Below, piece by piece: positions 20,472 through 21,458 of a stretch of 64,000 nucleotides of DNA (positions are counted from its first letter, which is position 1; every line of letters starts with the position of its first letter). Source of the DNA: Pedobacter xixiisoli (lineage in GTDB: Bacteria > Bacteroidota > Bacteroidia > Sphingobacteriales > Sphingobacteriaceae); assembly GCF_900215335.1 (NCBI RefSeq), contig NZ_OCMT01000002.1, positions 1,240,001 to 1,304,000 of the forward strand. The letters run 5' to 3'. A model generated the notes under the pieces. The model saw only the letters and a list, made by a program, of their open reading frames with translations, was not told the origin of the DNA and made no database searches. The position numbers and the translations under genes were made by a program.

Positions 20472-20575
20472 ATTTAGAGGTTGGATAGGTGAAAATCTAT
20501 TCGTTATACGAAGATATTAGAACTAACCGAATAGTTGGGCAAAAGCTTTAAAATAGTTAAGCGAAAATTTAGAGC

Positions 20576-20643
20576 AAAAAAGCCCCAGCGACCCTCTGAT
20601 TAATCCCGTACATACGGGACTCTAACCAGCTGGGCTAAAACTC
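20576..20643 (-). pseudogene. tRNA-Asn-like remnant A, doubling as terminator of the GIY-YIG gene
   Basis: Read on the minus strand, TTTTAGCCCAGCTGGTTAGAG matches the tRNA-Asn D-arm, and TTAATCAGAGGGTCGCTGG matches the segment after the anticodon. The ten bases between them are replaced by TCCCGTATGTACGGGA (20604-20619), a hairpin. The T-arm and acceptor are missing. Instead GCTGGGGCT followed by six T pairs back to AGCCCAGC, so the remnant folds as an intrinsic terminator. The last 17 codons of the GIY-YIG gene run through it. Confidence 0.75.
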
Positions 20644-20902
20644 CTGTTGGCGCTACCACGTCAATAAGCCTTTCGAGCAGTCGCCTACTCTTTTGTTTTT
20701 TGATGAACCTATCCAAACGTACAGCCTCGCTTTCAATTTCTCCACATAGAAAAACTGCTTTTAGAACCCAAGGTCTATGTTTAGAAGTGAAGGTTAACCC
20801 CTCAGAAGAATTATGTTCCTTCAAACGCCGAACATAGTCTCTGGTGTAGCCAACGTAATATTTGTCTGAACAAGTAGAATAAAGAATATATAGGTAAAAC
20901 AT
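20600..20902 (-). CDS. GIY-YIG nuclease-domain protein lodged in the tRNA-Asn array
   Basis: This is a single GIY-YIG domain of about 100 residues (YLYILYSTCSDKYYVGYT, then RRLKEHN and FTSKHRPW), of the UPF0213/YhbQ-like class, with the two Tyr-containing motifs and a downstream Arg and Glu. I start it at ATG 20902 (MFYLYIL) because the nine residues upstream derive from the preceding repeat. The C-terminal tail (GVLAQLVRVPYVRD) is a translation of the tRNA-like remnant A. Remnants A and B flank the gene as direct repeats of about 60 bases. Stand-alone GIY-YIG proteins include homing-type endonucleases; activity here is untested. Confidence 0.8.
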   Translation of the reverse strand: MFYLYILYSTCSDKYYVGYTRDYVRRLKEHNSSEGLTFTSKHRPWVLKAVFLCGEIESEAVRLDRFIKKQKSRRLLERLIDVVAPTGVLAQLVRVPYVRD

Positions 20903-20937
20903 AAATGTTAAGATACAAAAGCTTCGCATGGAGTAAT

Positions 20938-21057
20938 CTCAAGCTTGAGCTTTCAAACTCCCTCTACTGGGCTCCAAAATTATCGGGACAGTACTCCCCA
21001 GCTAACCTCTGATTAATCCCGTACGTACCAGACTCTAATCAGTTGGGCTAAAACTCC
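20938..21057 (-). pseudogene. tRNA-Asn-like remnant B with altered anticodon arm and T-loop
   Basis: On the minus strand it reads GGAGTTTTAGCCCAACTGA (D-arm), then TCTGGTACGTACGGGA in place of the anticodon arm, then TTAATCAGAGG. A 24-base unrelated piece (21004-20981 region) replaces the T-loop, followed by AGCCCAGTAGAGGGAG, the acceptor 3' strand. The flank with AAGCTTGAGCTTTC matches the flank of the intact gene at 21177, showing that the whole unit was duplicated. It cannot form a normal tRNA. Confidence 0.7.
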
Positions 21058-21161: not shown

Positions 21162-21176
21162 GCTTGAGCTTTCAAG

Positions 21177-21250
21177 CTCCCTCTGCTGGGCTCGAACCAG
21201 CGACCCTCTGATTAACAGTCAGATGCTCTAACCAGCTGAGCTAAGAAGGA
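21177..21250 (-). tRNA. tRNA-Asn (anticodon GTT), copy 2
   Basis: A 74-base cloverleaf. The acceptor TCCTTCT pairs with AGAGGGA. The D-arm is GCTC...GAGC. The anticodon stem TCTGA/TCAGA encloses the loop CTGTTAA with anticodon GTT. The T-stem GCTGG/CCAGC encloses TTCGAGC. The discriminator is G and CCA is not encoded. The sequence is identical to the copy at 21385-21458. Confidence 0.95.
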
Positions 21251-21271: not shown

Positions 21272-21321
21272 CTCCCTCTGATTAATCCCGTACCTACGGG
21301 ACTCTAACCAATTAAGAAGGA
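21272..21321 (-). pseudogene. tRNA-Asn-like remnant C: acceptor stem plus one hairpin, T-arm deleted
   Basis: On the minus strand TCCTTCT...AGAGGGAG keeps the tRNA-Asn acceptor pairing. The D-arm is shortened to TAATTGGTTAGAG, the anticodon arm is TCCCGTAGGTACGGGA, and TTAATCAGAGGG runs straight into the acceptor. The missing T-arm is explained by deletion between two CAGAGGG copies 27 bases apart in the intact gene. The result is a tRNA-like RNA of about 50 bases, if transcribed. Confidence 0.7.
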
Positions 21322-21356
21322 ATTTTCCTCGGAAAGATGGTTATCAATTTGTCAAA

Positions 21357-21383: not shown

Positions 21384-21384
21384 G

Positions 21385-21458
21385 CTCCCTCTGCTGGGCT
21401 CGAACCAGCGACCCTCTGATTAACAGTCAGATGCTCTAACCAGCTGAGCTAAGAAGGA
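21385..21458 (-). tRNA. tRNA-Asn (anticodon GTT), copy 1
   Basis: The same 74-base cloverleaf as the copy at 21177-21250: acceptor TCCTTCT/AGAGGGA, anticodon loop CTGTTAA, T-loop TTCGAGC, discriminator G, no encoded CCA. It is the promoter-proximal copy of the array. Confidence 0.95.

Follow-up and report, generated by a model that had tools for sequence, protein, structure and literature searches.

A GIY-YIG nuclease gene among tRNA-Asn copies of Pedobacter xixiisoli: a probable worn copy of a mobile unit resident in tRNA genes

In the 64,000-nucleotide stretch of the Pedobacter xixiisoli genome analysed here (the window), a small nuclease gene of the GIY-YIG type lies in a minus-strand array of intact and broken tRNA-Asn copies. 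The best explanation of this locus, and one that we consider probable, is that it is a worn copy of a mobile unit that resides in tRNA genes and is found in many Bacteroidota. In sequence, each unit is a tRNA gene fragment in circular permutation, in which 3′ part, terminator, GIY-YIG ORF and 5′ part follow one another and are joined at a palindrome. An earlier note on this DNA had proposed a small mobile unit that targets tRNA-Asn; mobility is supported, but the family is not tied to tRNA-Asn and comprises many tRNA lineages. A larger claim is put forward tentatively, and may well prove too broad: that this is a new class of mobile element, with a GIY-YIG nuclease, a hairpin palindrome as unit end, tRNA arms as landing sites and the tRNA rebuilt at insertion, and that a wider set of these nucleases supplies the missing enzymes of CGTC-type REP palindromes.

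The locus in the window

Read in gene direction, the minus strand presents tRNA-Asn, a gene-less remnant, tRNA-Asn, remnant B, the GIY-YIG ORF, remnant A and a T-run. The two intact tRNA-Asn (GTT) genes, at 21384..21458 and 21176..21250, are identical in sequence; the second is directly upstream of the block formed by remnant B, the gene and remnant A, and the gene-less tRNA-Asn remnant (about 21274..21323) sits between the two. Remnant B (20996..21057) is a tRNA-Asn copy with a degenerate palindrome at 21017..21032, 2 mismatches from the motif. Remnant A (20581..20643) is a tRNA-Asn copy with a 16-nt palindrome at 20604..20619, and lacks the T-loop and the acceptor 3′ part; the gene-less remnant has its own 16-nt palindrome at 21286..21301. 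The unit closes with a terminator-like GC-rich stretch and T-run, recognized by eye at 20571..20590. All of these features, the ORF included, are on the minus strand.

The flanking repeats were described in the earlier note as tRNA sequence, and so they are. Remnants A and B are identical, ungapped, at 56 of 63 nt (score 91; best of 500 shuffles, 26), and both align to tRNA-Asn above their shuffles (A, 55 against a best shuffle of 24; B, 33 against 25). The gene-less remnant as a whole scores hardly better than its shuffles against tRNA-Asn (24 and 22); it does, however, contain the 30-nt remnant motif with zero mismatches. In all three remnants the same ten bases, CATCTGACTG (tRNA-Asn nt 26-35), are swapped for 16 others: TCCCGTATGTACGGGA in A, TCTGGTACGTACGGGA in B and TCCCGTAGGTACGGGA in the gene-less copy. 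Remnant B would be the end of a unit whose gene was lost. Some copies have a second insertion in the T-arm (GGGAGTA...TCCCGAT...), found in the window at about 20970-20999 and in G058 (L047, L283).

The ORF has 109 codons (20929-20600), with the domain starting from about 20902. It is the single listed ORF of the window unit, with none other of at least 60 aa inside, and its product contains the PF01541 (GIY-YIG) domain (E 2.9e-11; 44 bits, curated cut-off 22.6). The profile matches UPF0213 BH0048 (1zg2, E 5e-12), SLX1 (best 6e-6) and I-TevI (0.02); SLX1 and I-TevI, both among its solved relatives, are DNA nucleases. The gene's last codons, GVLAQLVRVPYVRD-stop, run through remnant A and are translated tRNA-derived sequence, as had been read from the window, because the stop codon lies just beyond the palindrome. 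Y5, Y16, G18 and R26 are invariant across 20 aligned rows; column 64 is Glu in 19 of the 20, with Asp in the window copy only. The Tyr, Arg and Glu of these rows we take to be the conserved catalytic residues of GIY-YIG enzymes. Two features mark the copy as worn: remnant A has lost its T-loop and the acceptor 3′ part, and Asp stands where 19 relatives have Glu. Given that substitution and the truncated remnant, it may be dead.

The unit and its palindrome

At most loci an intact tRNA of matching kind lies upstream of the unit, and most aligned loci follow one plan: a degenerate 5′ part leads into the palindrome, after which comes a 3′ part that is nearly or exactly that of the host's own tRNA. 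The earlier note had supposed that the unit brings its own tRNA-derived end and terminator. Some units do carry their own terminator; the repeats are better described as tRNA sequence plus an inserted palindrome.

The palindrome is short and takes over part of one tRNA arm; the Asn type is 16 nt long, mostly TCCCGN6CGGGA. Which stretch is replaced is a lineage trait: it is the anticodon arm in the Asn, Val, Leu and Arg lineages, a stretch 3′ of the anticodon in the Met lineage, the variable loop and T-stem in Labilibaculum Asn (L110), and the T-arm in the Asp lineage (L249, L260). The flanking repeats of the window recur in other copies, with the palindrome at the same position: among distinct inserts between TTAGAG and TTAATC (only inserts of 14-20 nt were taken), 31 of 32 are exactly 16 nt long. 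By the strict count, 126 of 153 rows (100 of 118 loci) have a motif of the TCCCG..CGGGA type 3′ of the gene, against 8 of 153 when the stretch was reversed; a looser hairpin finder, accepting any 5-bp stem, gave 148 of 153. The 153 rows are those of 223 with a remnant score of at least 30. Strict palindrome types among these copies are TCCCG..CGGGA (99) and TCCG..CGGA (13); that of L113, TCATGGAATTCCATGA, is atypical. The ORF frequently terminates within the tRNA copy or shortly beyond it; in 53 of 85 copies labelled Asn, the stop comes no more than 6 nt after the palindrome.

At pairs 6-7 of the palindrome, 53 of 62 cells show Watson-Crick pairing, whereas 2000 shuffles gave a mean of 25.5 and never more than 36; mismatches of both the G-T and the A-C type are present. 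Because it is kept in gene-less copies, has a lineage-specific position and covaries, we take the palindrome as the unit's cis site.

Palindromes of this kind also occur more widely. The P. xixiisoli genome has 51 matches to TCCCGN6CGGGA, most outside the window, and 2 to the reversed control. Near matches of the window type are embedded in a different dispersed repeat, which starts with GTCATTT-CGA or ends with CGAAATGACG (e.g. L009, L010, L011).

Hairpin-bearing copies are sometimes called as tRNAs by ARAGORN (Ile-TAT, Trp-CCA, Lys-TTT, Phe-GAA and others). They make up 12 of 117 distinct calls, with examples at L027, L036, L038, L103, L110, L113, L157, L162 and L169. At L036 the anticodon position is shifted in three of five tRNA-Val calls; two distinct calls there combine a TCCCGA..TCGGGA arm with a correct-looking TAC loop. 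The tRNA-Val calls at L036 may be copies that mimic, or have regained, a tRNA-Val.

These calls, the covariation of the palindrome pairs, the position of the copies behind tRNA genes and the frequent retention of the T-arm and acceptor 3′ side are what one would look for if the system acted at the level of RNA; that is, if the hairpin-bearing tRNA copy were transcribed and served as a decoy or regulator, with tRNA or that RNA as the substrate of the GIY-YIG protein. We regard this as very improbable. Most aligned copies have lost the acceptor 5′ side or keep it only in degenerate form; several gene-less 5′ copies have no T-arm; the occurrence of both G-T and A-C mismatches gives no sign of one RNA strand; and the profile's solved relatives include the DNA nucleases SLX1 and I-TevI. 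A group I intron was considered and provisionally set aside: nothing intron-like is seen by eye between the tRNA halves, and an Rfam scan covering six odd loci gave one tRNA.

Distribution and linkage to tRNA genes

The P. xixiisoli genome itself has five matches to the window protein. The three best are linked to tRNA genes: the window copy (Asn), L002 (Val) and L003, which sits behind tRNA-Gly with a downstream remnant of tRNA-Leu; the two weak ones are without tRNA linkage. At E 1e-6, matches were found in 30 of the 99 genomes of the genus; 24 of these 30 have a copy that is tRNA-linked by fixed thresholds. Class and phylum searches, which include GIY-YIG genes without tRNA linkage, gave matches in 192 of 295 genomes (1e-8) and 112 of 198 (1e-12), respectively. 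An all-species scan with Asn-type patterns yielded 113 relatives, of which 80 were kept, at 79 loci; as far as names and tree tell, those kept are Bacteroidota, except for one Thioalkalivibrio bin, perhaps mis-binned.

Linkage was defined as an intact same-strand tRNA within 1 kb upstream, a downstream remnant scoring at least 32 (reversed-control maximum 28), or both; the scoring misses decayed remnants and tRNA kinds outside its library. Matches identical in core plus 100 nt were dropped, which reduced 271 to 223 rows, some of them fragments of one gene. By this definition 75 of 81 Asn-like matches are linked (62 by the upstream tRNA alone), as are 49 of 62 own-genome and genus matches (41), 24 of 27 top class matches (20) and 35 of 46 in extra class regions (31), the last hand-picked in a way that favours arrays. 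Where tRNA and remnant are both present, their kinds agree in 118 of 119 cases (52/52 for the Asn-like set; 30/30, 25/25 and 11/12 for the others); the one misfit, L153, typed Glu and carrying the hairpin, we take to be a typing artefact. Where the tRNA lies no more than 130 bp ahead of the domain (100 copies), the gap has a median of 48 bp.

Among the 13 unlinked rows of the genus set, 10 are weak matches to another subfamily (L004, L005, L040, L041, L055, L057-L061); the others are L032, whose tRNA-Val is 1045 bp away, L031, cut by a contig end, and L037, where a tRNA-Val copy can be seen by eye. All 11 in the extra class set lie in arrays (L180, 7; L181, 3; L179, 1). Four of six unlinked Asn-like matches are at contig ends, and two, L091 and L144, both second copies, are not; of three among the top class matches, L171 is not contig-cut. 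The earlier note would have given up its reading had the gene been found away from tRNAs in close relatives. That is not the pattern: the Asn-like matches are tRNA-linked with the exceptions given, and the weak off-tRNA matches belong to another subfamily. The note's other refuting condition, flanking repeats peculiar to this one copy, does not hold either: the repeats recur in other copies.

Of 15 loci inspected from the phylum search, 13 come from outside the class. Twelve of the 15 have an upstream tRNA, and in the other three tRNA pieces are recognizable by eye only. One of these loci, L258, repeats L196, and remnant alignment is weak in L248, L252 and L253. Besides Asn, lineages occupy Val, Met, Leu, Ala, Arg, Asp, His and further tRNA genes.

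Phage and plasmid origins were considered and rejected. Searched at E 1e-3, 50,697 phage records contain no match to the window protein; a profile search of IMG/VR gave seven loci, with a tRNA remnant in L062 only, so that one of seven viral-contig rows counts as linked and none by the upstream tRNA alone. The plasmid search gave a single weak match, on a Legionella lytica plasmid (34% identity).

Lineage specificity and selection

The kind of tRNA follows the protein tree. On a tree of 174 proteins the tRNA label changes 28 times, against 86.5 for shuffled labels, and none of 200 shuffles was as low. Nineteen Met rows, from hosts of several families, lie on one branch (support 100); eight of these are array L180, labelled by hand. 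The Asn, Val and Leu copies of P. xixiisoli each cluster with copies of their own tRNA kind. The tree was built with FastTree on 80 columns, with 80 of 171 inner branches unresolved; many of its Asn rows stem from the Asn-like query, cores shorter than 213 nt, with stops or identical in protein were left out, and labels were set by hand for L003, L153, L162, L169 and L180.

The nuclease is under purifying selection, and has been kept working: dN/dS lies between 0.03 and 0.5 in 12 of 12 pairs, each gene being used once.

Occupied and empty sites

Thirty tRNA-Asn loci of the genus were compared; a pfkB-family gene adjoins 27 of them, and 17 hold two tRNA-Asn genes. Occupied and empty tRNA loci were set side by side, as the earlier note had suggested, and relatives show both states. 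For the occupied locus L046 (G092), homology resumes at tRNA nt 36 in all four comparisons with single-tRNA loci (L228, L243, L245, L246). For L047 (G058) and L229 (G011), left homology ends at nt 25 in 6 of 8 comparisons with single-tRNA loci; against L228 the break is elsewhere, and the leader of the intact tRNA matches instead. Downstream homology of both extends for 1.4-1.5 kb against L245, and for less than 190 bp against L243; as such long homology was seen against one empty locus (L245) only, our confidence in mobility is slightly lowered.

Terminators and joins allow more than one history. The terminator after the tRNA (AATTTCAAAGAATAAGCC...) is common to the occupied loci L046, L047 and L229 and absent from L245; the terminator after the first remnant in G058 resembles that of L245. 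Several other loci have similar terminators on both sides of the unit, a pattern compatible with either local duplication or insertion. When two-tRNA loci (L231-L233) are used for comparison, left homology continues across the join of G011 and G058; the left join, or remnant, in these two genomes may represent the leading member of an old pair of tandem tRNA genes.

Arrays and copies without the gene

Units can be stacked, head to tail. G058 has eight in tandem, about 399 bp each, behind tRNA-Leu; G205 has ten matches spaced 457 bp. Gene-less copies also form series: three copies 83 bp apart in G007, four at about 111 bp in G085, and two at 139 bp in G058. The Asn motif with its palindrome was found in 15 of 99 genus genomes, with zero matches for the reversed control pattern; G020 and G043 have the motif, yet no E 1e-6 match at that tRNA. 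L259, whose genome belongs to a different class from that of the window, holds tRNA-Asn copies of roughly 70 bp in tandem, with the palindrome and no nuclease gene. A mirror form exists at L181, where GIY-YIG units are stacked before an intact tRNA-Arg, with palindrome GCCCGCCTGAA..TTCAGGCGGGC. L180 is, by eye, a tRNA-Met array; no intact tRNA was found in the stretch examined.

Plain unequal crossing-over could be the source of such arrays. One way to extend this is to suppose that the units never move: a GIY-YIG gene and tRNA fragments were anciently joined, the combination has since been multiplied solely through unequal crossing-over and gene conversion among tandem tRNA genes, and its patchiness reflects loss. 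Several observations lean this way. Units in tandem arrays are near-identical; two tRNA-Asn loci of G092 have units 96-97% alike over about 580 bp, some flank included, as expected from gene conversion; units with a dead nuclease are still duplicated; and 17 of 30 genus loci hold two tRNA-Asn genes. In the second G092 locus both tandem units share the same nonsense codon, so stacking is possible without a local nuclease.

We nevertheless think it unlikely that the units are immobile. Separate lineages, alike in the design of their palindrome, reside at no fewer than eight kinds of tRNA (Asn, Val, Met, Leu, Ala, Arg, Asp, His); a copy that is tRNA-linked by the fixed thresholds is present in 24 of 99 genomes of the genus; orthologous loci are both occupied and empty; and purifying selection on the nuclease would be left unexplained.

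A possible route of insertion

If the unit is mobile, as we favour, its anatomy suggests how it might move. The nuclease would recognize and nick hairpins, one in its palindrome and one in the corresponding tRNA-gene arm, perhaps while these are exposed as single strands at replication forks. One relative of the profile, SLX1, is a structure-specific nuclease. Host recombination by way of the carried tRNA halves would then insert the unit and rebuild one complete tRNA. A crossover in the 3′ half would place the unit after the intact tRNA, one in the 5′ half before it; since an intact target would remain, further insertions could build arrays. We file the unit as nuclease-driven, homology-assisted selfish DNA. 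Its existence accounts for two annotation puzzles: chains of pseudo-tRNAs, sometimes reported by ARAGORN as odd tRNAs (Ile-TAT, Trp-CCA), and small GIY-YIG ORFs that end in translated tRNA codons.

A sister subfamily and CGTC-type repeats

A broader perspective, compatible with mobility of the tRNA-linked unit, places it within a wider palindrome system: GIY-YIG nucleases would be the dedicated enzymes of CGTC-type REPs, and the tRNA branch would have arisen when the hairpin invaded tRNA arms. We rate this as possible, at somewhat less than even chances. In a sister subfamily of these nucleases, 25 of 30 class loci (L293-L322; best-first, one per genome, among 58 matches listed) have [CT]GTCAT or ATGAC[AG] on each side of the gene, no more than 250 bp away, against 4 of 116 shifted windows, a control that is often coding, which favours the contrast. 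The two-sided motif was found for 5 of 49 genes in the window and 0 of 126 tRNA-linked loci. Inverted repeats across the sister-subfamily gene score at least 30 in 18 of the 30 loci and in 3 of 116 control windows. In P. xixiisoli, where the subfamily is represented by L004, L005, L323 and L324, three genes adjoin, or are enclosed by, repeats with 45 and 41 occurrences genome-wide; the reversed patterns were found 0 times.

The connection is nonetheless one of association. Among ten genus loci of the sister type, only 4 have the two-sided motif, but in others a related palindrome arm can be made out by eye. About eight of the ten represent a single orthologous locus, which by eye is flanked by a palindrome arm on each side. 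Palindromes of the tRNA branch have no CGTC tag, and a tree of 80 columns with long branches leaves the relation of the subfamilies unresolved.

CGTC REPs have a CGTC or TGTC tag and a stem beginning AT, include among the CGTC-1 repeats Neisseria dRS3, and are apparently without a dedicated transposase (PMC3733652). The flanking repeats of the sister subfamily fit this class, which makes the subfamily a testable candidate enzyme for CGTC REP palindromes.

Comparison with known systems

A search of the available literature found no description of a tRNA-linked GIY-YIG unit family. UPF0213, SLX1 and I-TevI nucleases have the domain in common with the unit's protein; we know of none in a permuted tRNA unit with a palindrome. 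The Ssn family pairs a stand-alone GIY-YIG domain with a repeated DNA target, as the unit does; Neisseria SsnA is reportedly a single-strand nuclease of this kind that acts on a genomic repeat. To our knowledge, no Ssn member is inserted in tRNA genes.

Mobile DNA often docks at tRNA genes, and the elements known to do so carry integrases. Integrative elements that target tRNA genes enter the gene and carry a part that restores it, like the unit. The unit differs in its size of about 0.4 kb, its one gene, its junction palindrome and its tandem arrays, and in having no integrase: the window unit contains no tyrosine recombinase gene, its sole listed ORF being the GIY-YIG gene. For the unit, one nuclease domain of about 80 residues and a short palindrome seem to suffice, in a large part of a phylum and at many tRNA kinds.

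Free-standing homing endonuclease genes are similar in that a nuclease gene, occupied and empty alleles and target homology at the flanks occur together; relatives of P. xixiisoli do have occupied and empty alleles of the same site. The unit, in contrast, keeps an intact target beside the element, and its palindrome replaces target sequence.

REP/RAYT systems and CGTC REPs (PMC3733652) resemble the unit in their short palindrome core, their gene-less copies and the enzyme gene that adjoins a palindrome. The unit departs from REP/RAYT in its gene, which is GIY-YIG rather than a tyrosine transposase, and in its site, a tRNA arm; beside the Asn-type palindrome the CGTC/TGTC tag is absent, and the borders are instead TTAGAG and TTAATC.
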